A stretch of 40,842 nt of DNA. Origin: Nitrospina sp. Lineage in GTDB: Bacteria; Nitrospinota; Nitrospinia; Nitrospinales; JACRGP01. The stretch lies in assembly GCA_024648695.1 (NCBI GenBank), contig JACAVV010000009.1, positions 1 through 40,842 of the forward strand, given 5' to 3'. Below are positions 1,540 through 20,912 of this stretch, piece by piece. Numbering within the stretch: the stretch's first letter is position 1; the number at the start of each line of letters is the position of its first letter. The position numbers were made by a program, and so were the translations under genes. Under the pieces are notes generated by a model. It ran no database searches and was not told where the DNA came from. It was given only the letters and a program-made list of their open reading frames with translations.

Positions 1540-2586
1540 TCAGGATGCTTCCACCTCGGCATTTGATGGGGCTGGATTACTCCACAACCAATACTTTTTG
1601 AAACCAACCAGGATCCTGACAAAGTTCAATAAACAAAGCCCTCCCATATAGGTACCCAAAGAGATAAAGAATCCTCGCTCTAAACCGCCCAGAAAGGGGA
1701 ACGCACAATCGGTCAATAAAATAAAAATTCCAAGGGTAGAAAGTTTATCGGGCATTTCATGGGCTGTGTTGAGAAAGTAACTTTTCATCACCTGACCCGT
1801 GTAGTTTCCGCAATAAAAAGCCAGAAACCACCAACCGGTAAATTGGGATTGAGTTCCCGTAACTAACACATAGCACAAGGCCAGGCTGGCAACTCCAAAA
1901 ACGTTGAATGGGACCGGACTTCTTTTCAATCGAATCAAAATATCAAGGACTGTAAACAGACATCCCAACGCACCCACAATCACTATGGCCCATTCCCAGG
2001 TAAAATCATTCCACATAGACGAACGCCACAACTCGCGTCCCGCAGGAAAAACCCAGGTGACAAAAAACGCCTGAATTAAAAACAATCCTTCCAGGGATCC
2101 TATGGGACCAAAATACAATTCTCCCCGTTCTTTTTGTTCAACCATGGTCGCCGCAAAGGCCAGATAGGATATCCAAAGCATCCCGTAATAGACCCACGGC
2201 GAATCGATACGAATGAACACGAAACAAGCCGCAATGAGTATGGCGCTATTGTAAATATCCAGATAGTGGTCGATGAACTCGCCCAGAGGAGAGCTGGTTC
2301 CGGTCTCCTTGGCGTGCATGCCGTCAAGGTGATCGCCGACAATATAAAAGTGGATCAACAGGGAAAACCAAAGCGCCAGGGAACCAATCGCGAATCCGCC
2401 AGGCTCCCATACCATCGCAAATAGAACCCAAAGTGCGGAGCAGGAAATCAAAGTGATCTGATTGGCTGTTATTTTTTGCGGAACCCATTTATAATAATGA
2501 GCCACATAATATTTTTTAAAAAACCCTAAGGTGATGGAGTAATCCACGCAGTTATAACTGTACTCAGGGTAACGTGCTTTAGTCAT
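1540..2586 (-). CDS. CDP-alcohol phosphatidyltransferase, choline/ethanolamine-phosphotransferase-like
   Basis: Integral membrane enzyme of the CDP-alcohol phosphotransferase family, which joins a CDP-activated head group or diacylglycerol to an alcohol. The signature is complete in spacing: D85, D88-G89, A92-K93, G102, D106 and D110, with Lys in place of the usual Arg. The surrounding words (ANQITLIS near 41-48 and SSPLGEFIDH at 98-107) resemble eukaryotic CPT/EPT enzymes more than bacterial PgsA or PssA. At 348 residues with many hydrophobic helices, it is also nearer the eukaryotic size than the roughly 200 residues of PgsA. It converges with the LptF/G gene (2-nt gap) and is divergent from the SDR gene. 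The substrate is inferred only; ethanolamine or another amino-alcohol phosphate transfer is the leading guess. Confidence 0.85.
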   Translation of the reverse strand: MTKARYPEYSYNCVDYSITLGFFKKYYVAHYYKWVPQKITANQITLISCSALWVLFAMVWEPGGFAIGSLALWFSLLIHFYIVGDHLDGMHAKETGTSSPLGEFIDHYLDIYNSAILIAACFVFIRIDSPWVYYGMLWISYLAFAATMVEQKERGELYFGPIGSLEGLFLIQAFFVTWVFPAGRELWRSSMWNDFTWEWAIVIVGALGCLFTVLDILIRLKRSPVPFNVFGVASLALCYVLVTGTQSQFTGWWFLAFYCGNYTGQVMKSYFLNTAHEMPDKLSTLGIFILLTDCAFPFLGGLERGFFISLGTYMGGLCLLNFVRILVGFKKYWLWSNPAPSNAEVEAS

Positions 2587-2624
2587 GAATGTGGAATCTT
2601 ATCTCTATTTGAAGGATCGATTGA

Positions 2625-3497
2625 TTGAAAAATGAAACTATGAAAGGTAAAGTCTGCCTGATCACCGGTGCCAATTCCGGGATTGGAAAGGAAACAGCCC
2701 AGGCACTTGCAGATTTTGGAGCCACGGTGGTCATGGTCTGCCGAAATGTCGAAAAAGGCAAAACCGCCAGAAACGAAATCATTCAACAAACAGGGAACCA
2801 AAATGTCGGGTTGATCATAGCAGATATGGGTTCACAAAAACAGGTGCATCGTTTGTCCGAATCGTTCAGAAGCCAATACAATTCCTTGCATGTGTTGATC
2901 AATAATGCCGGTTTGATTCTGGGGACCCGGTCCAGCACAGAAGACGGCCTGGAAACCACTCTGGCAGTGAATCATTTGGGTCCATTTTTACTAACCCACT
3001 TACTGTTGGACCTAATAAAAAAAAGCCAACCGGCGAGAATTATCAACGTGTCATCCACCGTCCATAAGTGGGCTCGTATTCGATTTGACGATTTAAACTG
3101 GGAAAAAGGTTACAAGCCAATGAAGGTTTACAGCCAATCGAAACTCGCCAATATTCTGTTCACCTACCAACTCGCAAAAAAACTTGAAGGAGAACAAATT
3201 ACAGTCAATGCCCTGCACCCTGGAGTCATCGGCAGTAACTTTGGCCAAAGCGGATCGCCGATTCACCGGTTCTTTATCAATCTTGGCAAGCCCTTTTTGA
3301 CTTCCTCAAAAAAGGGAGCCTCGACATCCATCTATCTTGCAAGTTCGAATGACGTGGAAGGAATCACAGGAAAATATTTTGTGGACAGGAGAGCGGTTGC
3401 CTCTTCGAAGTACTCATACGACGCAGACATTCAATCCAGGTTTTGGGAAGTCAGCCTAGCCTTGACCGGTCTCAATGGAGAAAAACAGTATGCCTAA
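2625..3497 (+). CDS. short-chain dehydrogenase/reductase (retinol-dehydrogenase-like)
   Basis: NAD(P)-dependent oxidoreductase with a classical SDR Rossmann fold. Visible motifs are TGANSGIG at residues 14-21 (dinucleotide binding), NNAG near 90-93, a conserved Ser in VSST, and the catalytic pair Y169 and K173 in YSQSK. Length (290) is typical of the retinol dehydrogenase/WW-oxidoreductase-like branch, which acts on lipophilic alcohols or aldehydes. The TTG at 2625 is favoured as start because GAAGGA (2611-2616) lies 8 nt upstream. The ATG at 2640 has no such site and would remove five residues ahead of the fold. The 3' end overlaps the next gene, so the two are probably co-transcribed. The actual substrate is unknown. 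Confidence 0.88.
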   Translation: MKNETMKGKVCLITGANSGIGKETAQALADFGATVVMVCRNVEKGKTARNEIIQQTGNQNVGLIIADMGSQKQVHRLSESFRSQYNSLHVLINNAGLILGTRSSTEDGLETTLAVNHLGPFLLTHLLLDLIKKSQPARIINVSSTVHKWARIRFDDLNWEKGYKPMKVYSQSKLANILFTYQLAKKLEGEQITVNALHPGVIGSNFGQSGSPIHRFFINLGKPFLTSSKKGASTSIYLASSNDVEGITGKYFVDRRAVASSKYSYDADIQSRFWEVSLALTGLNGEKQYA

Positions 3498-4212
3498 AAA
3501 AGTTTGCCTTTCAATCGATATGGAACCCGACTGTCCGCCCTTTTTAAATACTTTTCGCGGCATCGAAGAAGGCACGGACCCCTTTTTAAAACTTCTCGAC
3601 CAGGAAAATATCAAAGCCACCTTCTTCACTACAGGGCAAGTCGCCAGAAAGTACCCCAAAACCATCTCAGCGATAGTGGAGCAAGGTCACGAATTGGCCT
3701 GTCATGGTGATAGCCACAAACCATTCCCTTACATGAATCGTGAGGAAGCAGAACGCGAGATCACCGAATCCAGCAAAACCCTGCGGGAATTTGCCGACGT
3801 GGTTTCCTTTCGGGCACCCAACTTGATGTTTCCTGATGAATATCTGGATTTGCTGGAAAAGGCGGAATACAAAATTGATTCCTCCGAAGCTAAATACAAA
3901 CCGGCCTACTACAAACCCTCGCCCAAAACCACATTGCAGAGAATTCCCGCATCAGTCACGTCTTCAGTTTTAAGGCTTCCCGACTGGATCCGTTTTCCTT
4001 ATTTAAGGGTGCTGTCAGATCCCGTGGTGCTGTTTGTTCATCCCTGGGAATTTGTCGATTTAAGGAAAGAACATCTACGTCTCGACTGCCGCTTTAAAAC
4101 CGGACAAACGGCTTTGGAGTGCTTGTTCACAGTTATCAAATATTTCAAATCCAGGGGATCTGATTTTTTTCCGATCCGGGAATTAGCGGGCGCGAACAGG
4201 ATTTCCCGTTAA
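3490..4212 (+). CDS. polysaccharide deacetylase family protein (NodB fold)
   Basis: Carbohydrate esterase 4/NodB-type metal-dependent de-N-acetylase, expected to remove acetyl groups from an amino sugar in a glycan or glycolipid. Key residues are present: D10 and D14 in the SIDMEPD motif, the metal-binding H72-x3-H76 in CHGDSH, a Phe-Arg-Ala-Pro (SFRAP) motif, and a C-terminal FVHPWEF His motif. There is no signal peptide, so it probably acts in the cytoplasm, as enzymes working on lipid-linked intermediates do. The start is set at ATG 3490 because GGAG (3477-3480) lies about 9 nt upstream; an in-frame ATG at 3475 would add five residues. It overlaps the SDR stop by 8 nt, which implies translational coupling. 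Its 3' end overlaps the convergent sulfatase-fold gene by 30 nt. Confidence 0.87.
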   Translation: MPKKVCLSIDMEPDCPPFLNTFRGIEEGTDPFLKLLDQENIKATFFTTGQVARKYPKTISAIVEQGHELACHGDSHKPFPYMNREEAEREITESSKTLREFADVVSFRAPNLMFPDEYLDLLEKAEYKIDSSEAKYKPAYYKPSPKTTLQRIPASVTSSVLRLPDWIRFPYLRVLSDPVVLFVHPWEFVDLRKEHLRLDCRFKTGQTALECLFTVIKYFKSRGSDFFPIRELAGANRISR

Positions 4213-6225
4213 AAACCCGTCGTCCCACACCCGGTTTTTCTCCACCAGGTAAGACCAGTAATTGACGCGATCGCACCAGTCGCGCACCTCCTGGGGAGTG
4301 AAAGGCGTTCCCGCCAAAGAAGCCGTAATGGGCGCATTGGGAACAAATGTCGGCGCCACCCAGGCGGTTTCAGGATTGTTGTTTTTTACATACAAAGTAT
4401 GTCCGCCCTTATCCACCCGAAACCCCGGATTCCGGATCGCTACCGAAACACGTTCTTCGGCAGAAATCTGATTTAACAAATTGTTCCCGAAACTTGCAAC
4501 GGGACGATGATCCCCAATCAGTGCAAGCAGGGTGGGCATGATATCGACCTGGCTCGCAGTGAAGGAATCCACTCGCGGTGTTTGCCCCAAAGACCCTGGA
4601 GGACCGATCATCAATGCAGAGGTCCAAACCTTGTAATCCACGGGCATGCCTTTGAGACGGTCATCCACATTTTCGTCCGTGTTGTCTGAATGATCTCCCA
4701 GAACAAGAATGATTGTATTCTTCCATCGCTTACGTTGTTTCAAAAACTCGATCACGCGTCCAACGTGAAAATCCAGATTCTTGAGAACCATGTTGTAGCG
4801 GGTTTCAATATCTTCAATGCCACCCGTGTCCACCTTACTGGCATCCCCTGCGGCAGTGAGAGGAACGAAGAACGAATCTTCCAAGGTATAAGGCGTATGC
4901 GTTCCCGCGGGTGCGATATAAGCAAAAATGGGCTTATCCGGCTTTTCCTTGTCCTGGGCTTCGATAAGACCCATCAATTTGTCCATGATCATTTGATCGC
5001 TCATACGGCGAGTCACGATCAAATCGTTTTCAGGAAGTTCAAACACGATGTGGTCGAACCAGCGCCGCGCCCATTCCAGTTGATTATCGAAACTGGGATT
5101 CGATCCCCAAAATGCCATGTTTGTGTATCCGTAATCGCGGCGCAATCGTTTCGGCAGGGAGTCCACCTCCAGATTTGAAAAATTGGAAATAATAAACTTG
5201 TCCTTATGCGGCCAAAGTGAGGTGTTGATAGAAAAGAAACCAGCGGCACTGGGAAACCCGTTGGAAATAAACCGGGGATACACCACCCCCTCCTTACTCA
5301 GACGGTCCAGATTGGGTGTTGGCGAAGGTTTCACATTGTTCATGCCGAAACCTACATTGCGTCCCCTAAGCGATTCCACCACAAAAATTAAAATATCCGG
5401 AGGCTCCTTTAGAGGTTTTATAGGTGGAGGATTCTTAACATTATCCTGTCGTACCAAAGGAAAATCGGGATTCAACCACTGGGTGTCAGGGGAAGGATGA
5501 GATACCATACGCAGAAGTTTTATCGATTCCTCTTCATTGTCCGGAGGTGGACTGTCGTCCAGGTTCAGAAACGAATCAAGGAACAACATCTCCGCCGTCT
5601 TGAACATAGGAACCTGATGCTTGTCTGCAGAAAGCAAAGGAATCCCCATTATTGAAGCGGCCAACAGAAATGCAATGAAAATTGATTTATCCGGATGATA
5701 TTCCACCTTCCGCTTTTTATAGCGGACACTTAAAACGCCCATCACGATCCATGCCATGAACACCAATCCGAGGGACATTATTATATAGGCTAAATCATTC
5801 AGTAAGGGTTGGTACAATTCACTGGAAACCAGGCTGTTGGGCCGAACGTAAGTGACCATCATAGCTGGCGAAAAACGTTGACCGATATACCTCAACATTC
5901 CAAAATCCACCTGACCCAGTAAAATCACACTGGCAAAAAAAGCCAATGCCAGCCCCGTCACAAAGGGACGAACCGGTGTCAAAAGTTTCCAGACCCCCAA
6001 AAACAGAACACCCACGGCAAGTAATTCAGGAAGGTTAAACGCCATCGCTATGATTATTGCGTTCAAGGGCGCCGCCACTATTTTGTTACCACTGGGATCA
6101 GTTCCAAAATAATGGTGGACGATCCCTAAAAAGCGTGCGAAAACAGTGATCAGGGACGCAAACACGATAGGATGAACCAATTGCGGTTTTAGATCTTTCA
6201 ACCTTTTTAAAATCATATATCTCAA
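4183..6225 (-). CDS. membrane-anchored sulfatase / LTA-synthase-fold enzyme
   Basis: Alkaline-phosphatase-superfamily protein of 680 residues. The N-terminal part carries about five hydrophobic helices (roughly 20-36, 50-78, 88-107, 145-166 and 181-200). The extracytoplasmic catalytic domain spans about 275-620. The metal-site motif VVESLRG places E284. The nucleophile region reads NGFPSAAG, so S326 is the likely nucleophile where LtaS has Thr. A GTHTPY motif gives H443, and LGDHSDN gives D511 and H512. This layout matches LtaS/phosphoglycerol transferases and phosphoethanolamine transferases, which move a phospho-alcohol from a phospholipid to a glycan or glycolipid, as well as true sulfatases. 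No Cys or Ser in a C/S-x-P-x-R sulfatase motif is seen, which favours phospho-alcohol transfer. It is divergent from the flippase-like gene. Confidence 0.85.
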   Translation of the reverse strand: MRYMILKRLKDLKPQLVHPIVFASLITVFARFLGIVHHYFGTDPSGNKIVAAPLNAIIIAMAFNLPELLAVGVLFLGVWKLLTPVRPFVTGLALAFFASVILLGQVDFGMLRYIGQRFSPAMMVTYVRPNSLVSSELYQPLLNDLAYIIMSLGLVFMAWIVMGVLSVRYKKRKVEYHPDKSIFIAFLLAASIMGIPLLSADKHQVPMFKTAEMLFLDSFLNLDDSPPPDNEEESIKLLRMVSHPSPDTQWLNPDFPLVRQDNVKNPPPIKPLKEPPDILIFVVESLRGRNVGFGMNNVKPSPTPNLDRLSKEGVVYPRFISNGFPSAAGFFSINTSLWPHKDKFIISNFSNLEVDSLPKRLRRDYGYTNMAFWGSNPSFDNQLEWARRWFDHIVFELPENDLIVTRRMSDQMIMDKLMGLIEAQDKEKPDKPIFAYIAPAGTHTPYTLEDSFFVPLTAAGDASKVDTGGIEDIETRYNMVLKNLDFHVGRVIEFLKQRKRWKNTIILVLGDHSDNTDENVDDRLKGMPVDYKVWTSALMIGPPGSLGQTPRVDSFTASQVDIMPTLLALIGDHRPVASFGNNLLNQISAEERVSVAIRNPGFRVDKGGHTLYVKNNNPETAWVAPTFVPNAPITASLAGTPFTPQEVRDWCDRVNYWSYLVEKNRVWDDGFLTGNPVRAR

Positions 6226-6312
6226 ATCAAAGTTAAATTTTGCAGGGATTTCATTTAATATAGGGTGGATTTTGAAGAGGACAGGAAAAGTTTTTCAAGA
6301 TAACGTTGGGAT

Positions 6313-7293
6313 ATGACAAAGTTAAAATCAAATTGGAAAAAATGGGGCGGCATATTGGCCTGGCTGATCGCTTCCTTTCTATTATACCTTTGCTTTCGCG
6401 ACATCGAATGGGAACGTGCCTGGTTTGAATTGAAACAGGCACGGCCGGCTTGGCTGATGATGGCAATTATATTTAATCTGTCCATCTTCGTTTTTTGGGC
6501 CTGTCAATGGATCGTCTTTTTACCCCGCAATTACAAGGTCCATTTTTCGCGCATGATCCAGGTGAACGCCTTGATGTCCATGGCCACCAACTCAGTCCCT
6601 TTCCTCGGAGGACACGCATTGGGTGTCATCCTTTTATCGAAACGGGAAAAAGTGGGCAGTGCCGTGGCCTTGTCCATTCTGGCCCTTGACCAATTGGCCG
6701 AGGGCCTTGCAAAAATCAGCGTCCTGCTATTAATCGCATTGTTCACGCCTATTCCCTTATGGTTGAAACAGGGAATTATAGTATTGGTCAGCGGTGTGGT
6801 ATTGCTCTTGTGCATTTTGTTGGTCATGGCTCACCGGCATTCGACTTTAGCTTCTCACTCTCCGGAGGAACCACATGGCCGCCTGGAATCTATAAAGCAG
6901 TTTATCATACGTTGGGCTCACCATTTGGAAGCCATGCGCGACGCTAAAAAATTTTTCACAGGATATGTCCTGGCATTAGCCATGAAAGCAGGTGAAGGTT
7001 TGGCGATTTGGGCGGTACAAAAAAGCCTTGGACTGGATCTGCCGGCAGGCCACGTTTTACTGGTTCTCGCTACGGTTAATCTAGCCACCATGATACCCAT
7101 GGCCCCGGGTAACCTGGGAGTTTATGAAGCCGCTGTGTTCTTTGTGTACCAATTTCTCGGTGTCTCTGCGGAGGTCGCTTTAGGTCTGGCCCTGTTTCAG
7201 CACTTGCTGTTTCTTTTGCCTATGGCAGGAACGGGTTATATCCTTCTGTTTTTCCAAAACATGTTCCAGGTTCAAACCCAGGAGGCTTCTTGA
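6313..7293 (+). CDS. lysylphosphatidylglycerol-synthase-type flippase-like membrane protein (UPF0104)
   Basis: Polytopic inner-membrane protein of 326 residues, with about eight hydrophobic helices spread over the whole length. It matches the membrane domain of the lysylphosphatidylglycerol synthase/UPF0104 family. The diagnostic C-terminal motif PMAPGNLGVYEAA lies near residues 258-270, followed by FQHLLFLLP. It lacks the C-terminal aminoacyl-transferase domain of MprF, so it belongs to the stand-alone group often found in glycolipid clusters and thought to help flip or handle lipids. It is divergent from the sulfatase-fold gene (87-nt spacer) and convergent with the glycosyltransferase. A role in moving a glycolipid across the membrane is an inference from context. 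Confidence 0.82.
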   Translation: MTKLKSNWKKWGGILAWLIASFLLYLCFRDIEWERAWFELKQARPAWLMMAIIFNLSIFVFWACQWIVFLPRNYKVHFSRMIQVNALMSMATNSVPFLGGHALGVILLSKREKVGSAVALSILALDQLAEGLAKISVLLLIALFTPIPLWLKQGIIVLVSGVVLLLCILLVMAHRHSTLASHSPEEPHGRLESIKQFIIRWAHHLEAMRDAKKFFTGYVLALAMKAGEGLAIWAVQKSLGLDLPAGHVLLVLATVNLATMIPMAPGNLGVYEAAVFFVYQFLGVSAEVALGLALFQHLLFLLPMAGTGYILLFFQNMFQVQTQEAS

Positions 7294-7327
7294 CACTTGC
7301 GTTATGTTGCGATTGGCAGTAGGGAAC

Positions 7328-8509
7328 TCAAGCGACTAACAGGGAGGGTTTAACAGGTACGGTCACCCCGCGTTTTTCCAAAGCAAGGTTATAAATTTCC
7401 ATATGCTTTTTAATGACGTCGTCCCAATGGACCGGTGGGAGAGTTTCCCGATTGTGTTTTGCAATTGCGGAACGTAAATCGTGATTCTCAATCAATTGCA
7501 CAATACTGTTGGCCATTTCCGTATCGTTTCCCGCAAGGATGCCTTCCCGTCCACACTGAATGTATTCACTCACTCCGGAGCGTTGCATAGCGATTATCGG
7601 GAGTCCCGCGCAACGGGCTTCATAAGCGGCAATGCTGAAGGATTCCAAAATCGTCGGCAGGACAAAAATGTCGGAATCCGAAAACACCTTTTTAATCGTT
7701 TCTTTCGATTGATATCCCATCAGCTCAACGACATTCCGCAAGGACATGCGGTCGACCATTTTTTCCAGATCCGAACGCTGGGGACCATCGCCAATAATTT
7801 TGAATCGAACCCGTGTATCAGGCGACAACGCCTTCAATACCTCGGGAATCATACGGAGCAAAGCTTTGGCACGTTTTTTTTGGTTTAAGCGCAAAACGGT
7901 AACAATCGATACTTCCTTTTTCGACCGGCACGATTCAGGAAGCTTCCATTCCGAATGCTCTATCCCGTTAGGTAATATATGGACCGTATGCTCATTGACC
8001 AGGGATTTCACATCTTTAGCCGCCACGCCACTCACTGCAGAAAACAGAACAGGCCATTTCGACCACTTGAACGGCTTGTCCAAAGCACCCAGGACTTTTG
8101 TGAAATTCCTGAGAATCGAGTGGCAGGTCAGAACGGTTGGAAAGCCCATTTTCTGACTCACATAAGCTCCGCCATAAGAAAGTGGAGTTACCACACTGGT
8201 ATGGCAATGCACGACATCAAACTGCTCGCGGGTCAAAATCGACTGGATTTTCTTGAAAGCGGAGGGTGTCCATACCAGACCTAACCCGGGAATGCGTGGT
8301 GTATTTAAGCGGTGAACCAGTACCCCTTCGGTATTGCTTTCCCCTGGCGTGGAAGTGATGATTTGCACCTCATGGCCTTCAGACATCAATTGCAAAGCCA
8401 GATCACGTAACTGAAATTCGATCCCGCCGATTCTCGGCAGATACCAATCGCAAATCATGGCGATCTTGAGTTTGCCTTTAAGACTTGGGCTGTGGGTCAA
8501 TTTGTTCAA
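7328..8509 (-). CDS. glycosyltransferase family 4 (PIG-A-like)
   Basis: Retaining GT-B glycosyltransferase of 393 residues. The N-terminal acceptor domain has the GGIEFQL motif near residues 28-34, right after the first beta strand (MICDWYLPR), as in the PIG-A/GPI-GlcNAc transferase branch of GT4. The C-terminal nucleotide-sugar domain has the E-x7-E motif at E289 and E297 (ESFSIAAYE). No membrane helix is evident, so it probably acts on a lipid acceptor at the cytoplasmic face. The start is TTG at 8509, which forms a TTGA overlap with the stop of the upstream oxygenase gene, implying translational coupling. The donor (UDP-GlcNAc in the eukaryotic relatives) cannot be confirmed from sequence. 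Confidence 0.88.
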   Translation of the reverse strand: MNKLTHSPSLKGKLKIAMICDWYLPRIGGIEFQLRDLALQLMSEGHEVQIITSTPGESNTEGVLVHRLNTPRIPGLGLVWTPSAFKKIQSILTREQFDVVHCHTSVVTPLSYGGAYVSQKMGFPTVLTCHSILRNFTKVLGALDKPFKWSKWPVLFSAVSGVAAKDVKSLVNEHTVHILPNGIEHSEWKLPESCRSKKEVSIVTVLRLNQKKRAKALLRMIPEVLKALSPDTRVRFKIIGDGPQRSDLEKMVDRMSLRNVVELMGYQSKETIKKVFSDSDIFVLPTILESFSIAAYEARCAGLPIIAMQRSGVSEYIQCGREGILAGNDTEMANSIVQLIENHDLRSAIAKHNRETLPPVHWDDVIKKHMEIYNLALEKRGVTVPVKPSLLVA

Positions 8510-9240
8510 ATTCGTGCTTTCTTTTTAGCTTCCCAAAACACATGCTTCAATCCGAAATAAGCCAGGGAATCCTTCATATTAGATATAAAACGGCCAAACC
8601 GGCTCATTCGGTGGTCCGTCAAATACTCCATCGTCAATACCACACGCTCCTCATTTTCGCCAAGAGGTGTTACCTTATGGTGTAGGCGCCCCCCATTAAA
8701 AAAAACCAGGGTTCCTGGTTTTACAGGTACGGAACAGCGTTTGGTTTCACGCGTTTTATCATCCAGGTACAAATCATAAACTAGTTCGCAACTGGAATTA
8801 TCAATCAATCCTAAAAGTATGGTATACCGTTTTCCCCAATAATAAGACGTATCGTAATGAAACCCTATATGGTCGCCTGGCTCCGTATAAAAATACAAAG
8901 CATACGTATGAGGATCGTCCACAGGACAATCGATCAAATTTTCCTCACTCAGTTCCCGAATCATTGCGAACATATCGGGAGAATAGTACACTTGCCGGAT
9001 TGCAGAAGAAATCCGGTCAATATAGAATTTGTTTACGGCGCCCCCTTTTTTTTGCAGGGGAATATAATTTCTATGGACCTCGGTCCGGTACACCGGCAAA
9101 GGATCCAGTAAATGCTCAATCAGTTCAGAGGGTAGAAAATTTTCAATAGCTATAAACTCATTGCTATCGGAAAATTGTTCTTTCAAAAGAGAGAGATCCT
9201 GTTTTTGTATCGCTCTGGCCATTTCAGCCTGAACATCCAT
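8506..9240 (-). CDS. 2OG-Fe(II) oxygenase family protein
   Basis: Predicted iron- and 2-oxoglutarate-dependent dioxygenase or hydroxylase of about 244 residues. Counting from a TTG one codon upstream (9243), the iron ligands are H129 and D131 (FHYDTS) and H188 or H189 (GRLHHKV). R200 is positioned for 2-oxoglutarate binding in the ERVVLTMEY strand. The preceding TYALYFYTEPGDHIG segment is typical of the prolyl-hydroxylase-like double-stranded beta helix. ATG at 9240 is chosen. GGGAG lies about 12 nt upstream of the ATG and about 9 nt upstream of the TTG, so either start is possible. It is the first gene of a two-gene unit with the GT4 (4-nt overlap), which suggests hydroxylation of a lipid or sugar in the same pathway. 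The substrate is unknown. Confidence 0.85.
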   Translation of the reverse strand: MDVQAEMARAIQKQDLSLLKEQFSDSNEFIAIENFLPSELIEHLLDPLPVYRTEVHRNYIPLQKKGGAVNKFYIDRISSAIRQVYYSPDMFAMIRELSEENLIDCPVDDPHTYALYFYTEPGDHIGFHYDTSYYWGKRYTILLGLIDNSSCELVYDLYLDDKTRETKRCSVPVKPGTLVFFNGGRLHHKVTPLGENEERVVLTMEYLTDHRMSRFGRFISNMKDSLAYFGLKHVFWEAKKKARI

Positions 9241-9552
9241 CAAATTTCGATTCTCCCGATTATATGGCTGCCCCCTTTAATTTCCCATTGAAGGGTTTTT
9301 ATAAAACTCATAAAAACAATAAGTTATTTCACAAATCGCACTAAACCTGCAAATTATAGTACGAGTAGGTCCTTGATTCAATGAAAACTTTTTCAAAGGC
9401 TTTGCATTGCCGAAACCTGCCAAAGTAAAATGGTTTAGCGTGTTTTTCCTTTATCCACCAGGATTTCTTGTGTATTCTCACAACAGACTCATAGTTTGGA
9501 TTCATTTAGCATCTAAAGATCCAGTTTCATTTCAATAAATTCCAACCAAATT
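9241..9552. other. 312-bp divergent intergenic spacer
   Basis: AT-rich spacer between the minus-strand oxygenase/GT4 unit and the plus-strand GMC unit, so it should hold promoters for both directions. No tRNA, CRISPR-like repeat or strong intrinsic terminator is visible. Only weak promoter-like hexamers were found, such as TTGTGT at 9468 with CATAGT about 16 nt downstream. I would not rely on these. Confidence 0.5.
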
Positions 9553-13716: not shown

Positions 13717-13731
13717 CCTGCGCACATTCCA

Positions 13732-15237
13732 ATGAAATTTTTTGAAAATCATTGGACTTTTCGTATTTTATGGGCGTTTTTTATTCTGGCCACCTGCAAC
13801 TGGATTGCCCTTTTGCTTTGGTACTGGCCAGGGACGCTTCCGGATGGCCCCACCAGCGGAGTCTGGACTTCTTTGGCCTTTGATTTTTCCGAGGGAGTAT
13901 TCTACCGTCCTCTAATGAGTGAAGAGGGTTACGGTGGCACGCGTTACATGCCCTTGTTTTTTGTTATCCACGGTTTATTGATCAAGGTTCTCGGTAACCC
14001 GATACAAACCGGAGTTGGCTTGAGCCTGGTTTGCATTACTCTTTTCATCCTGGGAATCGCTTTCCTGTTAAAGGAATTGAAAGCACCCTGGAAAATTGCT
14101 TTGCCCTTATCGGTTTCAGTTTTAACAACCCTTTCATTGCAAATGACGTCTCTGAATATTCGTGGCGATTTCCTGGCTTCGGCTTTAAACATTTGGGCAC
14201 TCTGGTTTGCCTTTCGGGGGAATACTAATCGGCAATGGGGTCTCCTGTATTTATCCGCTATTTTGTTTGCCTTGGCCTTTTTAACAAAGTTTACTTCTCT
14301 GTTCGGTTGCTTCGCTGTCACCCTGTATCTTATTTTGAAAGGCCAAAACAACCAGGCGCTTCGTTTGGCGGGAACAACGGGAGCAATTATTTTTTTGGGT
14401 TTGGGAATGATTCACTGGGCCAGTGAGGGACGGGCTTTGCATTCCTTTCTGGAATGCTCCACCGGGGGCATGCAGTCGGACGATGTCCTGAGCGTATTTA
14501 CCCGGTTCAGCAAGGAAATGATTCATGATCCCTTTCTCGGAATTCTTCTCGCGCTTATGATCGTGGCCTGGGCCAAGGCCAAGCCCGATTGGAAAACCTT
14601 ACCCTCATTGGTTTTCTTGTCAACCCTGGGAGTCACTCTCATAATTTACACTTCTCCGGGAACGGCTACCAATCACCTGATTGATTTCCAAGGAGCCCTG
14701 ATCCTGGCTTTGGGTTTTCTGTGTTCGCAAAATTCCTGGGCGTTGAAAGTAACCACAGCAGGATTGGCTTGTGTCGGGATTTATATAGTGGCCTCATGGC
14801 ACCCCGAAGTGCCCTCGGTGCGAAACTTTTTCAAACAACACGGAAAACCGGAAACGCAAATTGTTGATGACTTCTATCGTCGTTACGGAGAAAAAGTCCG
14901 GCCGGTGCTTTCGGATTATACTTATTTTGCGCTCCATCAAGGGAACCGGGCTTATGTTGGAGACCGATTTAATTTGAACCTGTTGATGAAGAAGCATCCT
15001 GAAATCAAGCAGGACTTTGAAAAAAAAATTGAGTCCCGGTTTTTTGGATCCATTGTTAAATCCAATTGGCCGGGGATTTTCAAAAAAAACATCGACTCCA
15101 GAGACGATCCCCATTTTAAAGAACGGGTAATGAAATATCATGCTTATCAAAGAGATCCTTATTATCCTCTTATGCTAGAGCATTATGAAATCACCAGTGT
15201 CCAACGCCCCTTTGTTTTTTTCTCACCCAGACAATGA
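13732..15237 (+). CDS. GT-C-like polytopic membrane protein, paralogue A
   Basis: Membrane protein of 501 residues with about ten hydrophobic helices and a soluble C-terminal domain from about 365 onward. It is laid out like GT-C glycosyltransferases that use polyprenyl-phosphate sugars (GT39/GT83/DUF2029-like). The first extracytoplasmic loop (about residues 28-75) carries LPDGPTSGVWTSLAFDFS and YGGTRYMP, and a later loop has SPGTATNHLID. The downstream gene repeats these words, so the two are tandem paralogues. The Asp in the first loop is a candidate catalytic base by analogy with GT-C enzymes. No family name is certain. It lies 15 nt after the Aur1-like gene in what looks like one operon. 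Confidence 0.78.
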   Translation: MKFFENHWTFRILWAFFILATCNWIALLLWYWPGTLPDGPTSGVWTSLAFDFSEGVFYRPLMSEEGYGGTRYMPLFFVIHGLLIKVLGNPIQTGVGLSLVCITLFILGIAFLLKELKAPWKIALPLSVSVLTTLSLQMTSLNIRGDFLASALNIWALWFAFRGNTNRQWGLLYLSAILFALAFLTKFTSLFGCFAVTLYLILKGQNNQALRLAGTTGAIIFLGLGMIHWASEGRALHSFLECSTGGMQSDDVLSVFTRFSKEMIHDPFLGILLALMIVAWAKAKPDWKTLPSLVFLSTLGVTLIIYTSPGTATNHLIDFQGALILALGFLCSQNSWALKVTTAGLACVGIYIVASWHPEVPSVRNFFKQHGKPETQIVDDFYRRYGEKVRPVLSDYTYFALHQGNRAYVGDRFNLNLLMKKHPEIKQDFEKKIESRFFGSIVKSNWPGIFKKNIDSRDDPHFKERVMKYHAYQRDPYYPLMLEHYEITSVQRPFVFFSPRQ

Positions 15238-15267
15238 CCATTCACCCAAAGAAAATCAGGAATCCGC

Positions 15268-16785
15268 ATGAAGGATAACGCACACACTTTTTTCTGGCTT
15301 GCGGGAGTGTGCGCGTTAATAAGCCACCTGGCCTTATGGATCTGGTTTGTTCCTGGAGGATTGCCTTCCGGAAACACCAGTGGCGTATGGACCGCACTGG
15401 CTGACGATTTTTCCAGAGGCATTCTTTATCGGCCCGTTTTCAATGAATTCGGTTATGGCGGCACCCGTTACATGCCGTTGTATTTCATGCTTCACGGATG
15501 GTTGATCCAGATGTTCGGCGATCCGGTGAGCACAGGATTTATCCTCACCTTTTTTTCCATCGCAATTTTGGATCTCGGTAGTTTTCTTGTATTACGCGAG
15601 TTGCAGGTGAAACCGCAAATAACACTCCCATTGGTATTGCTAGCCCATGCCACCATCACCTTTCAGTTTACGGGACTCGAAGTACGAGGCGACTTTCTGG
15701 CATCAGCTTGCAATGTATGGGGATTTTATTTTGTCCTGCGATTTACGAAAAATAAAAACGGGAAAAATATAATTTACAGTTCGATATGTTTTCTTACCGC
15801 ATTTTTTATTAAGTTCACTACGGTGTTTGGAATTGTAAGCGCCTTCTTGCTTCTGTACTCCAGACAACAAAGCAGTGCACTCCTTCGCCTGATTGGAATA
15901 TTGACCTGTAGCGCGTGTTTCATCCTGGCAGGACTTTATTTTTGGAGCGAAGGAAAGATACTCGCCTCGTTTCAAGCCTGTGCCCTGGGGGGCTATAATT
16001 TTTCCTATGCGTTTAAAACCCCTTTCTGGTTTTTATGGACTGTGGTTCAGGACCCCTTTTTCCTTATCTTATTGCTCCTGACCCTGTTCACGTTTTTTCG
16101 AGGAATAAAATTCAGGAAACTTCAGCCAATTGAGATCTATTTCTGCATGACCTTCATTTTAAGCGTCGCCATTTTTTCTTCTCCCGGAACCGGGACCAAT
16201 CACCTGATAGATCTGATTGTCGCCTGCAGTTGGATTCTGGGTCTCCGCTTCACCCAGGGGAATGCAAATGGCTGGATAGTGAAAGGATTACTGGCCGCTT
16301 TATCTTTAGCGACGATTCTGGTCTGGCTACCGGGAATGCCCTCCATAAAGAGTCACATAGAGCGGCGGGAACGACCTCAAATACAAACAGTGGAATTAAT
16401 CCAGCAACGATTGGGATCGCATACTAAAAATCTTCTTAGCGAAAATCCTCTTCTGCCCATTTTGATGGGGCAACGCCCTATTGTTATGGATGCATTCAGT
16501 TTGAGGCTCATAGCGCACCAATCCAAAACCATTCGCAAGGACTTTGAGGAAAAGATGCGGTCTCGATTTTTTGACGCTGTTATTTTGCTGGATTGGTCCG
16601 GAGCACCTTTAAATGAATTGGAACAATCTATCCGGGAACACTCCTCGTTTGGAGTCGATTCGTTTTACGGCGGCGTCCATTTTCCGAGTGGATTTCTAGA
16701 CCTTTTGAAATCAAATTACTATCTCAGTTTTGTGAAAAGGCCCTATCTGGTATTCGAGCCCAAAAACCCCAAAAGCACAGAATAA
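15268..16785 (+). CDS. GT-C-like polytopic membrane protein, paralogue B
   Basis: A 505-residue membrane protein, clearly a paralogue of the gene just upstream. Shared elements in the same order are LPSGNTSGVWTALADDFS, YGGTRYMPL followed by HGWLI, the VRGDFLASA segment near 145-153, SPGTGTNHLID near 305-315, and the soluble C-terminal region containing RPQIQTVE. About ten helices are predicted by eye. A polyprenyl-phosphate-sugar-dependent glycosyltransferase is the best guess, with the duplicate perhaps adding a second sugar or using a second acceptor. It is separated from paralogue A by 30 nt and followed by a 120-nt spacer before the GT2 gene. Confidence 0.78.
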   Translation: MKDNAHTFFWLAGVCALISHLALWIWFVPGGLPSGNTSGVWTALADDFSRGILYRPVFNEFGYGGTRYMPLYFMLHGWLIQMFGDPVSTGFILTFFSIAILDLGSFLVLRELQVKPQITLPLVLLAHATITFQFTGLEVRGDFLASACNVWGFYFVLRFTKNKNGKNIIYSSICFLTAFFIKFTTVFGIVSAFLLLYSRQQSSALLRLIGILTCSACFILAGLYFWSEGKILASFQACALGGYNFSYAFKTPFWFLWTVVQDPFFLILLLLTLFTFFRGIKFRKLQPIEIYFCMTFILSVAIFSSPGTGTNHLIDLIVACSWILGLRFTQGNANGWIVKGLLAALSLATILVWLPGMPSIKSHIERRERPQIQTVELIQQRLGSHTKNLLSENPLLPILMGQRPIVMDAFSLRLIAHQSKTIRKDFEEKMRSRFFDAVILLDWSGAPLNELEQSIREHSSFGVDSFYGGVHFPSGFLDLLKSNYYLSFVKRPYLVFEPKNPKSTE

Positions 16786-16905
16786 ATCAAAAAAATAAGG
16801 TTTTTTTGGACTAGCCGTTTGGGAAAGGAACCGTTTTGTGGTATTTTACACTTCAAGCTATTTGACTGTCTTTCCCTTTGGACCCAACAACTTAAATAAA
16901 TCATT

Positions 16906-17757
16906 ATGACCCAAGCCGCCTCGACCCAAAGAAAAATCAACAGACCTCTCGTCGTTTTACCCACCTACAACGAAGTGGGTACCCTCGGGCTCTTGCTGGA
17001 TGCCTTGATGCAATTGGATGTGCCTTTGCATGTGCTGGTGGTGGACGACTCCTCGCCCGATGGCACTGCCGATCTGGTGCGCAATTATTCCGAGTTTAGC
17101 AAACGGGTTTTCCTGATGCAGAGACCAGGCAAAATGGGACTCGCCAGCGCTTATAAGGATGGGTTCAAGTGGGGATTGGAAAATGACTATGAAGTCTGCA
17201 TGGAGATGGACAGCGACCTGTCTCATGATCCCAGAGACGTTCCGAAATTAATTAAAGGAATTGAGGACGGTGCGGACATTGCGATTGGATCACGTTACCT
17301 GAATGGCATCAGCGTTATCAATTGGCCGCTTAGACGCTTGTTGATCAGCATGGGCGCTGGTGTTTATACGCGGTTGTTTTCACGGGTGCGCTTGACGGAT
17401 CCAACAAGTGGGTTTAAAGCAATTCATAGGGATGTCTTGGAAAAAATGGACTGGGATAAAATTACCAGCGATGGTTATGGCTTCCAAATTGAGGTTCATT
17501 TTTTCAGCCAGCGTATGGGCTTCACTCTGAAAGAAATCTCTATTGTTTTTACCGAGCGCAGAAATGGCGAATCCAAATTTTCCAATCATATTATTTTTGA
17601 AGCTGCGTTTCGAGTCATCCAGCTTGGATTTATGGCTTTGTTCAACACCAAACCTCCTATAAAAAAAGAGTATAAACAAACTGATTCAAACACATTGACA
17701 AACAAGAGTGATTCGGATGAATTCGCAATGTCCGGACCCGAAAAATCGATTCACTGA
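16906..17757 (+). CDS. polyprenyl-phosphate mannose/glycosyl synthase (DPM1-like GT2)
   Basis: GT-A fold family 2 glycosyltransferase of 283 residues. It transfers a sugar, usually mannose or glucose, from a nucleotide donor to polyprenyl phosphate at the cytoplasmic face. Motifs follow DPM1 closely: PTYNE near 19-23, DDSSPDGT at D47/D48, RPGKMGLASAY at 73-83, the metal-binding D102-S-D104 followed by LSHDP, IGSRY, DPTSGFKA, SDGYGFQIE, and the terminal RRNGESK. Like human DPM1, it lacks the C-terminal membrane domain of fungal and some bacterial forms; a polar tail of about 40 residues ends the protein. Placed between three GT-C-like membrane proteins, it would make the lipid-linked sugar donor they use. 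The sugar identity is not visible. Confidence 0.9.
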   Translation: MTQAASTQRKINRPLVVLPTYNEVGTLGLLLDALMQLDVPLHVLVVDDSSPDGTADLVRNYSEFSKRVFLMQRPGKMGLASAYKDGFKWGLENDYEVCMEMDSDLSHDPRDVPKLIKGIEDGADIAIGSRYLNGISVINWPLRRLLISMGAGVYTRLFSRVRLTDPTSGFKAIHRDVLEKMDWDKITSDGYGFQIEVHFFSQRMGFTLKEISIVFTERRNGESKFSNHIIFEAAFRVIQLGFMALFNTKPPIKKEYKQTDSNTLTNKSDSDEFAMSGPEKSIH

Positions 17758-17833
17758 TTTATCATTTCCAATACCCTGTCCTGATTTATCATCACACACT
17801 GTTTTCCCTAGATTTCCAATCCGCATTTGAAGG

Positions 17834-19345
17834 GTGAAGGCCAAGGACTTCTCTCCTTATTCAATATCTGACGCCGGAATGAACTTTACAGAACTTCAGC
17901 AAAATCCCAAGCTCAAGCGAAACTTGATCCTGGCCGTCATCCTTCATGCGATTACCCTGTTCTGGTTGTTTCAATTAAACATCAACAAGGAAGAATGGAA
18001 ACAACTGGAAGCGGGAATGGAAGAAAAATCCACCGGCGCCTACATCGAAGCGATCCGCAAGGAATATGGTTTGTTTGGTTTCTTGCGGTTTTTCTATTCC
18101 GTGCACCGCGAAACAAAACTGTATTTTCGATACGCCAAACTGACTCTCTATGGGGACGTCGATTATTGGGTGAAACGAAAAGGCCAAACGGTTACGGCCA
18201 AACGACCGCTTCCCTATCGTGACATTCTTGTGGAATACCCTCCGGGTTCCATTCTTTTTTTCATTCCCGCGGCGCTAATTTCGGACAATAAAGACGAATA
18301 CCGTTTTTGGGTGGGTGCCTGGTTCAGTTTCCTTTACCTGCTCAATTTGTTCATGGGGCTCCATCTCTTGACGGGCGGTCGCCCGACGTTTCGGCAGATG
18401 AACCGCCTGCTATGGTGGTCTCTGGCTTTCCTGCATTTATTCGGTGCCGTGGTTGTGGCCCGTTTTGACCATGCGGTTGTGACATGTATTCTTGCCTCGG
18501 CTTTGGTGTATCGCTCGGCCTGCCGGCACGAGGGGACCCGGCAAAACCTTCGGTTGCTTTTGTTTGGAATTGTCGTGTCAATGGGAGTATTGACCAAAAT
18601 CATTCCCGGATTGATCGCCCCTGCTGTGCTTTTGATTTTAGTTTTACAATATCAGAATACCTTTCCCTGGCAACGGATGTTGTCTGTGATTGCAGGACTG
18701 GGTATGGGACTGGTGGTGTTGAATTTGATCTTTTACAGCATGTTTGGTCAAGGCTACATCGATAGCTTTACTTACCATATGAAAAGAGGGGTCCAGATCG
18801 AAACCCTTTATTCTGGGCTGATTTTGTTGGCGCATTTGGTCGGCTTCCCCGTTACCGTTGAGCGGTCGTATGGATCCCATAACGTGGTTTCCAGCATGAC
18901 CGAACCGGTTAAAATGATATCTCCCTGGCTATTTATAGCTTTAAGCGCCTACCTGGCCTGGATTGTCTGGTCCCAACGCCGAAACTTTAAATACACGGAA
19001 AATACAAGCCATGTCCTTCACGGACTATTGTTATTGACCTCCATACTGGTTTTGATGTTTATGTTGACCAACAAGGTGTTTTCACCCCAATACTTTATCT
19101 GGATCGCGCCCCTGATCCTTATCCAGGTGGCCGTGCGCAAGGATTTTCACCGAATCGGTATGCTGTTTCTGGTAGCAACCTTATTAACTCAAATTTTGTT
19201 TCCGCATCTTTATGATTTCTTAAAAGATTTTCATCCCGTTATGATCGTTTTACTCAACATTCGAAATGGTTTGATGGTGTATATTTTATTCCTGTTATTA
19301 AAAAACTTGCCTCAATTATTGAACAAGGTAGAACCCCATGCTTAA
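17834..19345 (+). CDS. GT87-like (DUF2029-type) polytopic glycosyltransferase
   Basis: Membrane protein of up to 503 residues with about ten helices. After the first helix (about residues 32-50) is a long charged loop, then an EYPPG motif near residue 136. YPP motifs of this kind typify GT87/DUF2029 and related polyprenol-phosphate-mannose-dependent mannosyltransferases. Later features include VARFDHAV near 209-216 and NKVFSPQYFIW near 415-425, a pattern common in GT-C mannosyltransferases. The start is uncertain: GTG 17834 has GAAGG immediately adjacent, which is too close for a normal site, and ATG 17879 (15 codons later) has no clear site. It lies directly after the DPM1-like gene, its probable donor source. 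It is not an obvious close paralogue of the pair at 13732-16785. Confidence 0.78.
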   Translation: MKAKDFSPYSISDAGMNFTELQQNPKLKRNLILAVILHAITLFWLFQLNINKEEWKQLEAGMEEKSTGAYIEAIRKEYGLFGFLRFFYSVHRETKLYFRYAKLTLYGDVDYWVKRKGQTVTAKRPLPYRDILVEYPPGSILFFIPAALISDNKDEYRFWVGAWFSFLYLLNLFMGLHLLTGGRPTFRQMNRLLWWSLAFLHLFGAVVVARFDHAVVTCILASALVYRSACRHEGTRQNLRLLLFGIVVSMGVLTKIIPGLIAPAVLLILVLQYQNTFPWQRMLSVIAGLGMGLVVLNLIFYSMFGQGYIDSFTYHMKRGVQIETLYSGLILLAHLVGFPVTVERSYGSHNVVSSMTEPVKMISPWLFIALSAYLAWIVWSQRRNFKYTENTSHVLHGLLLLTSILVLMFMLTNKVFSPQYFIWIAPLILIQVAVRKDFHRIGMLFLVATLLTQILFPHLYDFLKDFHPVMIVLLNIRNGLMVYILFLLLKNLPQLLNKVEPHA

Positions 19346-19406
19346 GAGCCATTACTTTTCATCCAACATCAACTCCCACTCGATTGACTGAACCTCACCT
19401 GTCCTT

Positions 19407-20123
19407 ATGAACTTTTTCGATTTTGGAATCACTGAGTTTTTGATTGAATTTGGAAGGCAGTTTTCTTTTTTTGGCGTTTCAATGATCTGGCTTCACGAAG
19501 CCAACTTTTTGAAAGGCTATTTGTTCACAGCTATTTATATGACCGCCTGGTTCATGCGCCACCCGAACCGGGAAAAGCACAGGGAAACGGTGCTGGCCAT
19601 TATGATCATGTGTCCCATCGCTTTGCTTGCGGGAAGGATCCTTTCTCTCATTTCCCCATTTCGTCCGCGGCCCATGAATGTCGAGGAGCTCTATTCTGTG
19701 ATGCAGTTTTATTCCGAGCCAGGGCATTTAAAAAGCTGGAGTTCATTTCCCAGCGACAATGCGGTGATGTTTTTGACACTGGGTACGGGATTATTCTTTT
19801 TATCGAGATCATTAGGGGTGTTTGGGGTGCTGTACGGCTTTTTCGGAATCGCCCTGACCCGCGTGTATGTGGGCTTGCATTATCCCACCGACATCATCGT
19901 GGGCTCGATCATTGGTGCTGTGGCGGCCTGGACCATTCATCGTCCGGTTTTGATTGAGCGGGTTATTCGCCCCGTTTATGCTTTGAAGTTCAAATTTCCC
20001 TTTTTGTTTTATGGGGCTTTCTTTTTCATATGTTACCAGTTGGCGACCATGTACGGAATCATTCGCAAGGCCGGAAGTTTTTTGGTGGACATTCCTTATA
20101 ATTTTTTAAAAACGCTATTTTGA
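19407..20123 (+). CDS. PAP2-family phosphatase-like membrane protein with substituted active-site His
   Basis: A 238-residue PAP2 (type 2 phosphatidic acid phosphatase) membrane protein with about five or six helices. Motif C2 reads SSFPSDNAV, so the usual His of PSGH/PSDH is Asn (N118). Motif C3 is intact as TRVYVGLHYPTD, with R152, H158 and the following Asp. Motif C1 is degenerate: SPFRPRP is present, but no Lys stands at the expected spacing before RP. Relatives such as BcrC and undecaprenyl-diphosphatases recycle lipid carriers, a job that would suit this cluster. Loss of the C2 acid/base His suggests reduced or changed catalysis unless a neighbouring residue compensates. The 3' end overlaps the convergent CDP-alcohol transferase by 9 nt. 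Confidence 0.82.
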   Translation: MNFFDFGITEFLIEFGRQFSFFGVSMIWLHEANFLKGYLFTAIYMTAWFMRHPNREKHRETVLAIMIMCPIALLAGRILSLISPFRPRPMNVEELYSVMQFYSEPGHLKSWSSFPSDNAVMFLTLGTGLFFLSRSLGVFGVLYGFFGIALTRVYVGLHYPTDIIVGSIIGAVAAWTIHRPVLIERVIRPVYALKFKFPFLFYGAFFFICYQLATMYGIIRKAGSFLVDIPYNFLKTLF

Positions 20124-20912
20124 GTCCATTTGCTCCATTTGGTTTTTGACATGAACCATTCTCTGCCATGCGGTCCAATGAGTGGTCACCGCCAGAATCA
20201 ACAAGGTGACCCAGATACAGCCAGGACCCAGAACCGGTATTCCACTCAGCACAGAACCCAGGATCATCAAAACCATTCTTTCAGGACGTTGCATCAGTCC
20301 CACTTTACACTGAACGCCAAGACCTTCCGCGCGCGCTTTGGTGTAACTGACTGCCATGGAACCCGAAAGACTCAAAAGCACCAAAATCACTCCCCAGCTT
20401 CCTTTTATCAACAACGCACTTCCAAAACCAAAAGCAACCCGATCATTTTCTGCAAAAAACCAGGCCAGGCCCATGAAATAGAAAGCTTCTCCAAACCGGT
20501 CCAGTGTACTATCCAGAAAAGCGCCGAAACGGGAAGGGTTTCCTGTAAATCTTGCGACTTGTCCATCCAGCACATCACAAATTCCGGACAAAATGAGCCA
20601 GATCCCCGCAATGACGAAGGCACCCTTGGCGTAAAATATTCCGGAAAACAAACTGAAAATCAATCCCGCATAGGATATAGAATCAGGATGGATGCCCCAA
20701 ATCGACAATTTATTACATACTGGTAAGAAAAACTTTAAAAACCGTTCTTTATTTTGAGCATTAATGAAGGACAAAGCGCAAAACCCATTCATTTTCTTTG
20801 GCATGGGGCCGTTTTTTAGTATAATTCCCGTTTCGGTAAATCGGGATGGTAGAAGCAGGTAAAATACTTTATACTCCAATTCCCGCAATCTGGATAAAAA
20901 ATAATCCAACAC
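20115..20912 (-). CDS. CDP-alcohol phosphatidyltransferase, PI/PIP-synthase-like
   Basis: Integral membrane enzyme of 265 residues with the complete family signature: D113, D116-G117, A120-R121, G130, D134 and D138. The piece RFGAFLDSTLDR (129-139 plus flank) and IHPDSIS near 74-80 resemble phosphatidylinositol-phosphate and archaetidylinositol-phosphate synthases more than PgsA or PssA. The likely reaction is therefore transfer of inositol-1-phosphate, or a similar polyol phosphate, onto CDP-diacylglycerol. An N-terminal extension of about 65 residues precedes the first helix. No inositol-1-phosphate synthase gene is seen in the window. It is convergent with the PAP2 gene and divergent from the GNAT-like gene (49-nt spacer). 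Head-group identity remains an inference. Confidence 0.84.
   Translation of the reverse strand: MLDYFLSRLRELEYKVFYLLLPSRFTETGIILKNGPMPKKMNGFCALSFINAQNKERFLKFFLPVCNKLSIWGIHPDSISYAGLIFSLFSGIFYAKGAFVIAGIWLILSGICDVLDGQVARFTGNPSRFGAFLDSTLDRFGEAFYFMGLAWFFAENDRVAFGFGSALLIKGSWGVILVLLSLSGSMAVSYTKARAEGLGVQCKVGLMQRPERMVLMILGSVLSGIPVLGPGCIWVTLLILAVTTHWTAWQRMVHVKNQMEQMDSK

Follow-up and report, generated by a model that had tools for sequence, protein, structure and literature searches.

A gene cluster of Nitrospina likely to direct the synthesis of a glycosylated inositol sphingolipid

We have analyzed a stretch of 40,842 nucleotides from Nitrospina sp. (GenBank assembly GCA_024648695.1, contig JACAVV010000009.1, positions 1 to 40,842), here called the window, which is G000:C45:1-40842 in our numbering of the 4.2 Mb draft genome G000. 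Positions 236-22092 hold what is likely to be an inositol sphingolipid cluster, the core of which would make a sugar-decorated inositol phosphorylceramide, a bacterial analogue of the glycosyl and mannosyl inositol phosphorylceramides (GIPC and MIPC) of eukaryotes. The evidence comprises homologies, diagnostic residues, two GT-C folds, a conserved neighborhood and the co-occurrence of genes. We regard it as very probable that the product contains ceramide and phosphoinositol, and as likely that this lipid in addition receives sugars from the enzymes encoded here.

A conserved gene cluster

Taking the AUR1-like PAP2_3 protein (12697-13716, + strand) as the query, we screened 60 relatives. Homologues with 54-59% identity are encoded in six of these (G020, G022, G033, G044, G047 and G050), with all other matches being short and weak. 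The six together with G000 form the cluster set, and the 54 others the comparison set. A core neighborhood is common to the seven Nitrospinales genomes, and the order is similar in the relatives, running LptF/G, LPG_synthase_TM, GT4, PAP2_3, one or two GTC1/2 genes, GT2, GTC3 and CDP2, with a gene for a GNAT-type protein further on. As six further genomes repeat this core set, largely in the same order, the association of these genes is not due to chance. One genus accounts for five of the seven genomes, and the cluster of G044 is interrupted by contig ends.

A preliminary description of this DNA had proposed that 1540-20912 encode a polyprenyl-phosphate-sugar-dependent glycophospholipid pathway with the logic of glycosylphosphatidylinositol (GPI) synthesis, and had named co-occurrence in related genomes as its own test. 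The neighborhood is indeed conserved, and the proposal is supported as far as it concerns an inositol lipid, polyprenyl-phosphate sugars as donors and GT-C enzymes. Domain searches, motifs and folds place every enzyme class that it listed where it had been described. Of the three GT-C-like proteins two are identified by predicted fold and Foldseek, and GTC1 by homology to GTC2; both PAP2 proteins are present, the first being an AUR1-like transferase rather than the plain phosphatase that had been supposed. The interval itself begins one gene late and stops one gene short, missing an LptF/G gene (236-1537) and a ceramide-synthase-like gene (20962-22092) that are both conserved with the cluster.

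The lipid anchor

The sole NCBIfam match of the PAP2_3 protein is NF052609 (phosphoinositol dihydroceramide synthase), at 152.8 bits against a cut-off of 480, so that it is related to BT_1522 of Bacteroides thetaiotaomicron without being its equivalog. When a profile of the seven PAP2_3 homologues is searched against the PDB, the one match is AUR1, the inositol phosphorylceramide synthase of fungi (3.9e-21), and the two proteins share the blocks PAAPPWY, FGAxPSxH and YLxHHYxxD. Judged from its sequence, this is an AUR1-like transferase and a candidate inositol phosphorylceramide synthase.

At the far end of the cluster, 20962-22092 (+) encodes a GNAT-type N-acyltransferase that we take to belong to the bacterial ceramide synthase (bCerS) family. 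This assignment comes from the synteny of the family with serine palmitoyltransferase (SPT) genes and sphingolipid loci, together with the position of the Caulobacter ceramide synthase gene CC_1154, which adjoins the LptF2 and LptG2 genes (PMC11324152). Paralogues directly follow SPT in most Nitrospinales (in G013:C35, for example, SPT occupies 19101-20243 and GNAT 20279-21382). Homologues lie in the sphingolipid loci of Sphingomonas, with genes for an NAD(P)H-binding protein, acyl carrier protein (ACP), an SPT-like protein, LptF and LptG, and of Rahnella, with genes for an SPT-like protein, ACP, an epimerase and a fatty acyl-AMP ligase. Those of Roseomonas and Diaphorobacter adjoin LptF/G pairs.

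The genome of the window has two copies of the family, with 38% identity between them. One is in the cluster, and the other is in an SPT operon 3 kb beyond the window (G000:C45:43.6-50.4 kb) that encodes SPT (463 bits to NF047600, under the cut-off of 640), the GNAT protein, a CerR-like protein, a CDP-alcohol transferase and an HpnN-like RND protein. The sphingolipid gene set of SPT, bCerS-family and CerR-like genes is therefore present in G000 with its members adjoining one another, the identity of bCerS being taken from synteny. Each of the six cluster relatives has a single bCerS copy, always of the cluster type; in G022, G033, G047 and G050 this is directly linked to the cluster, and in G020 and G044, where the cluster contig ends, it lies on a separate one. 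SPT stands next to the CerR-like gene without bCerS in each of the five relatives that have a complete SPT locus, that of G044 being truncated where its contig stops. In the tree of the family the cluster copies group together with 100/100 support and are separate from those of the SPT operons. The simplest reading of these sequences is that the ceramide synthase has been drawn into this cluster. Because SPT is common throughout the order, its co-occurrence with the cluster carries no information by itself.

The AUR1-like synthase, the ceramide-synthase-family GNAT and the nearby SPT operon point to ceramide, rather than diacylglycerol, as the most likely anchor. The alternative is a glycolipid built on phosphatidylinositol (PI), like GPI or the mycobacterial phosphatidylinositol mannosides (PIM), in which PAP2_3 would be a phosphatase and the bCerS-like protein would have some other role. 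The presence of a PI-phosphate (PIP) synthase, a GT4 scoring above the Pfam PIGA cut-off, a GT2 nearest to dolichol-phosphate-mannose (Dol-P-Man) synthase and a GTC3 fold nearest to GPI mannosyltransferase I and PimE, all described below, would fit such a lipid. We find it quite improbable, given that PAP2_3 matches AUR1 only, that the cluster contains a bCerS-family gene which the SPT operon of the relatives lacks, that the phosphoethanolamine-type genes are non-conserved and that the deacetylase is NodB, not PIG-L.

Further lipid genes are found in some of these loci. The cluster of G020 carries two fatty-acid desaturases (L042:7071-9006), one with a sphingolipid delta4-desaturase (Lipid_DES) domain. 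In relatives of genus g10 the space between CDP2 and the ceramide-synthase-like gene is taken up by the gene for a single reducing type I polyketide synthase of ~2,570 amino acids (L035:7433-15172 in G022, L039:804-8504, L041, L043, L045 and L046), with the domains KS-AT-DH-MT-ER-KR-ACP in L035; the acyl chain of the ceramide might come from this enzyme and be unusual, perhaps with methyl branches. The CDP-alcohol transferase that follows CerR in the SPT operons lacks the fourth catalytic aspartate at the usual place of the signature in 12 of 12 cases (L029:6248-7105 and 11 other Nitrospinales operons), and on this account may be inactive or of different chemistry.

The probable inositol headgroup

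CDP2 (20115-20912, − strand) is a candidate PIP synthase. It has the PIP-synthase-like signature motif DVLDGQVARFTGNPSRFGAFLDSTLD, and its best NCBIfam matches are PI-phosphate synthases (NF040950 at 160 bits, cut-off 180, and NF045883 at 132 bits, cut-off 170), with the PIP synthases 5d92 and 6h53 as its matches in the PDB. In MtPIPS the phosphate of inositol phosphate is bound by R155 and R195, which are not conserved in eukaryotic PI synthases, and also by S132 and K135 (PMC4634129). All four of these inositol-phosphate-binding residues (RsPIPS/MtPIPS) are kept in CDP2, where S189, K192, R212 and R251 align with the identical S132, K135, R155 and R195. The headgroup is probably inositol phosphate, and the likely route to PI goes through PI-phosphate, in the manner of mycobacteria and Bacteroides rather than of eukaryotes.

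Inositol-phosphate synthase (MIPS) is encoded in G000 at G000:C54:132960 (129.7 bits), and in six of the seven cluster genomes. We sought it next to the cluster in G000 and did not find it there, its neighbors being an FAD oxidoreductase and an ATC_hydrolase protein; MIPS adjacency is present in one Bdellovibrionota locus. PAP2b (19407-20123, +; Pfam PAP2 47 bits) is a candidate phosphatase for PI-phosphate or polyprenyl pyrophosphate, and has a homologue in one relative only, at the same position in G047.

The AUR1 fold does not of itself fix the headgroup, and homologues in Bdellovibrionota lie beside an aminotransferase and a Gfo/Idh dehydrogenase. The lipid might then be a glycosylated ceramide that carries another polyol phosphate, or an aminocyclitol phosphate, in place of myo-inositol. 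We consider this highly improbable, since CDP2 retains the inositol-phosphate residues that are missing in the Bdellovibrionota homologues, and MIPS accompanies the cluster in nearly all of the genomes that have it.

The Bdellovibrionota loci themselves (L049 and L051) place AUR1-like and CDP2 homologues beside the Gfo/Idh dehydrogenase and a class III aminotransferase (scanned in L051). MIPS is split over two reading frames in L049, and L051 has an APH-type kinase; these loci possibly encode an aminocyclitol phosphoceramide pathway. As their CDP2 homologues are without the inositol-phosphate motif, we have not used them as proof of inositol. In several Nitrospinales (L081, L082 and L084) MIPS is fused to a MobA-like nucleotidyltransferase in a protein of about 634 amino acids (domains shown for L082), which suggests a parallel CDP-inositol route.

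Candidate enzymes of sugar transfer

GT4 (7328-8509, −) is a candidate for transfer of the first sugar onto inositol. It scores 29.7 bits with Pfam PIGA (cut-off 27), and its best NCBIfam and PDB match is BshA. It is kept in four relatives with 47-49% identity, and was not found in the cluster of G047. A NodB-type polysaccharide deacetylase (3475-4212, +; Pfam PF01522, 73.7 bits), a candidate GlcNAc de-N-acetylase, is present in three of the seven clusters (those of the window, G020 and G022, 54-56% identity), and the LmbE domain of PIG-L type is absent from the cluster proteins. By analogy with GPI and some GIPCs the GT4 and NodB pair could make glucosamine (GlcN)-inositol, an idea limited by the type of the deacetylase and its occurrence in three clusters only.

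GT2 (16906-17757, +), a predicted polyprenyl-phosphate sugar synthase, has a single PDB match below 1e-8, the archaeal Dol-P-Man synthase 5mlz (2.7e-31), and is 60-64% identical in the relatives. Three genes on the same strand encode the GT-C proteins GTC1 (13732-15237; Pfam PMT_2 34.5 bits), GTC2 (15268-16785) and GTC3 (17834-19345). As sequence profiles of these proteins gave no match in the PDB, we turned to fold prediction. With TM-scores near 0.5, which speak at the level of fold class and not of acceptor or sugar, the AlphaFold model of GTC2 (pLDDT 80) is matched by Foldseek to OST, ArnT and PglB (5f15, 5e-6), and that of GTC3 (pLDDT 71) to GPI mannosyltransferase I bound to Dol-P-Man (8.9e-5), ALG3 (3.4e-4) and PimE (1.2e-3), three enzymes whose donor is a polyprenyl-phosphate mannose. 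GTC1 is homologous to GTC2 (36%). The models thus show GTC2 and GTC3 as predicted GT-C folds, and such folds use polyprenyl-phosphate or polyprenyl-pyrophosphate donors.

GTC3 is present in six of the seven cluster genomes (it was not found in G033) and in none of the 54 others (Fisher 1.3e-7), and GTC2 in all seven against one of 54 (1.8e-8), values that need caution because with five genomes from one genus the counts are not independent. The presence of both genes tracks that of the AUR1-like gene, and it is this co-occurrence that argues for sugar transfer to inositol phosphorylceramide.

These enzymes could instead belong to a separate, co-located pathway for a surface glycan or for modification of lipopolysaccharide (LPS), leaving an unglycosylated inositol phosphorylceramide like that of Bacteroides. 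Consistent with this, PAP2_3 and CDP2 are paired without these glycosyltransferase genes in Bdellovibrionota, GTC2 resembles ArnT, a lipid A modifier, and LPS is made, LpxC being present. We nonetheless think such a division unlikely. Outside the genomes that have the AUR1-like gene GTC2 and GTC3 are almost never found, and in the window PAP2_3-GTC-GT2-GTC3 run on one strand with gaps of 15-120 bp.

Candidate genes for flipping and export

The AglD/LPG_synthase_TM flippase-like protein (6313-7293, +; Pfam 119.8 bits) is kept in the five relatives in which that side is sequenced, with 49-54% identity, and BT_1521, a protein of the same family annotated as LPG_synthase, adjoins the inositol-lipid cluster of Bacteroides (PMC9246714). 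The LptF/LptG-family permease (236-1537, +; Pfam LptF_LptG 277 bits), a candidate lipid exporter towards the outer membrane, likewise lies beside the cluster in the five relatives with that side sequenced (43-47% identity). It is the third LptF/G gene of G000. Three family copies are found in G000, G020, G022 and G047, two in G033, G044 and G050, and at most two in 53 of the 54 comparison genomes. Given the extra copy, and the LptF/G genes that adjoin the sphingolipid loci of Caulobacter and Sphingomonas, it is plausible by analogy that the finished lipid is exported by an Lpt-like route.

We also considered that the lipid might stand in for LPS, and abandoned this because LpxC is encoded in G000 and most relatives. 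G022, a genome 96% complete in about 10 contigs, has the lipid cluster and no LpxC match, and might have lost LPS.

The proposed pathway

From the genes we infer the following reactions, with their sugars, order, sidedness and export. MIPS, encoded elsewhere in the genome, would provide inositol-1-phosphate, which CDP2 would combine with CDP-diacylglycerol to give PI-phosphate, and a phosphatase, for which PAP2b is the candidate, would convert this to PI. SPT, the bCerS-family protein and the CerR-like protein would make (dihydro)ceramide, to which the AUR1-like protein would transfer phosphoinositol from PI. GT4 would then put on the first sugar, with deacetylation by NodB in some strains; GT2 would charge polyprenyl phosphate with sugar, and after flipping the GT-C enzymes would attach sugars at the outer face. 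The LptF/G-type permease would export the lipid. In its most specific form, a GlcN- or mannose-bearing inositol phosphorylceramide built by GPI/PIM-style polyprenyl-phosphate-sugar GT-C enzymes, with a dedicated LptF/G-type permease for its transport to the outer membrane, we offer this scheme tentatively, at somewhat less than an even chance.

A number of observations weigh against the pathway as a whole. PAP2_3 and CDP2 both fall below the relevant equivalog cut-offs, in the case of CDP2 for both families. G047, a draft with 90% completeness, is a cluster genome in which no MIPS was found, and the same MIPS type is present in 7 of the 54 genomes without the cluster. No dedicated PI-phosphate phosphatase was identified in most relatives. 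The genes of the window are on both strands with non-conserved genes in between, and the preponderance of one genus bears on every co-occurrence count. Finally, the moderate model of GTC3 supports a GT-C fold and not a substrate.

Relation to known pathways

The inositol-lipid cluster of Bacteroides thetaiotaomicron, BT_1522-BT_1526, uses a PIP synthase, then a phosphatase and then an AUR1-like synthase (PMC9246714, PMC8791184). It shares with our cluster the PIP synthase (BT_1523), the AUR1-like phosphoinositol-dihydroceramide synthase (BT_1522), MIPS, SPT-derived ceramide and the LPG_synthase_TM neighbor. It differs in that no GT-C, DPM1-like GT2, GT4 or NodB is reported for the Bacteroides pathway, the product of which is unglycosylated; in Nitrospina, moreover, MIPS is not adjacent and PAP2_3 is far under the family cut-off. 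Caulobacter and Sphingomonas sphingolipid loci also have SPT, a bCerS-family acyltransferase, a CerR-like protein and LptF/G permeases near sphingolipid genes (PMC11324152), but no AUR1-like enzyme or PIP synthase is reported for them, and the Caulobacter headgroups are phosphoglycerate or glycosyl on ceramide.

Given the AUR1-like synthase, the bCerS-family GNAT and the SPT operon, the closest eukaryotic parallel is GIPC/MIPC synthesis rather than that of GPI. As in fungi and plants there would be an AUR1-type synthase, with sugars presumably added onto inositol phosphorylceramide. The first sugars of eukaryotic GIPC and MIPC are added from sugar nucleotides by GT32 (Sur1/Csh1) or GT8 (IPUT1) enzymes. 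Neither GT8 (IPUT1) nor GT32 (Sur1) Pfam domains occur in the cluster proteins; here there are instead GT4 and GT-C enzymes predicted to be polyprenyl-phosphate-dependent, with SPT and bCerS of bacterial type.

The GPI-like logic of the preliminary description holds in part. An inositol lipid, a GT4 that passes the PIGA cut-off but is nearest to BshA, a GT2 like Dol-P-Man synthase, a GTC3 fold like those of GPI mannosyltransferase I, ALG3 and PimE, and in some clusters a deacetylase, are all reminiscent of GPI synthesis. The glycerolipid anchor most likely gives way to ceramide on the evidence of the AUR1-like synthase, the GNAT and the SPT operon. PI synthesis as in eukaryotes is probably replaced by a route through PI-phosphate, and NodB by its domain is not a homologue of PIG-L. 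The proposed phosphoethanolamine step lacks comparative support, since no relative has a cluster with a homologue of the LTA-synthase-like or the CPT/EPT-like gene. Mycobacterial PIM synthesis offers the PIP synthase route, a GT4 (of PimA type there) and polyprenyl-phosphate-sugar GT-C enzymes, PimE being among the nearest folds, whereas its anchor is diacylglycerol rather than ceramide. We know of no AUR1-like step in PIM synthesis.

Bacterial inositol sphingolipids are known mainly from gut Bacteroidetes, where they are unglycosylated, and GIPCs have been described for plants and fungi (PMC11907402). In the literature that we searched we found nothing relevant on sphingolipids of Nitrospina or on bacterial GIPCs. 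Bacterial inositol phosphoceramide synthesis is thus known; what would be new is the attached glycosylation module, for which that literature gave no bacterial precedent. If our reading is correct, a GlcN- or mannose-bearing inositol phosphorylceramide would be a lipid class previously unassigned to bacteria there. It would add to the outer-membrane lipids known from bacteria, in a phylum with marine nitrite oxidizers among its members, and suggest possible sources for orphan sphingolipids of ocean lipid surveys. It would also provide prokaryotic relatives of GPI mannosyltransferase I and of the antifungal target AUR1, and a bacterial system for dissecting GPI-like glycolipid assembly from polyprenyl-phosphate sugars.

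Other genes of the window

Six genes within the cluster have no counterpart in the clusters of the six relatives. CDP1 (1540-2586, −; Pfam CDP-OH_P_transf 33 bits) is a CPT/EPT-like CDP-alcohol phosphotransferase of lipid-acceptor type, with the full signature motif DHLDGMHAKETGTSSPLGEFIDHYLD and at least seven hydrophobic segments. An LTA-synthase/sulfatase-fold membrane protein (4183-6225, −) has Pfam Sulfatase (98 bits) and matches LtaS in the PDB. As neither is carried by the cluster of any relative, we have set both aside from the core, CDP1 as an accessory gene. The others are a short-chain dehydrogenase (2625-3497, +), a HalD-like 2OG-Fe(II) oxygenase (8506-9243, −) that might be a lipid hydroxylase, a GMC oxidoreductase (9972-11501, +) with a small partner upstream at 9553-9975, and a short NAD(P)-binding epimerase-like protein (11995-12681, +) 15 bp upstream of the AUR1-like gene. 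The dehydrogenase, oxygenase and oxidoreductase, like CDP1 and the LTA-synthase-like protein, probably lie outside the core, judging by their distribution.

Rfam and tRNA scans gave no match. Beyond the cluster, 25297-26769 (+) encodes a protein of 490 amino acids made up almost entirely of ankyrin repeats, and 26789-28360 (−) one in which a caspase domain is fused to a formylglycine-generating-enzyme (FGE-sulfatase) domain.

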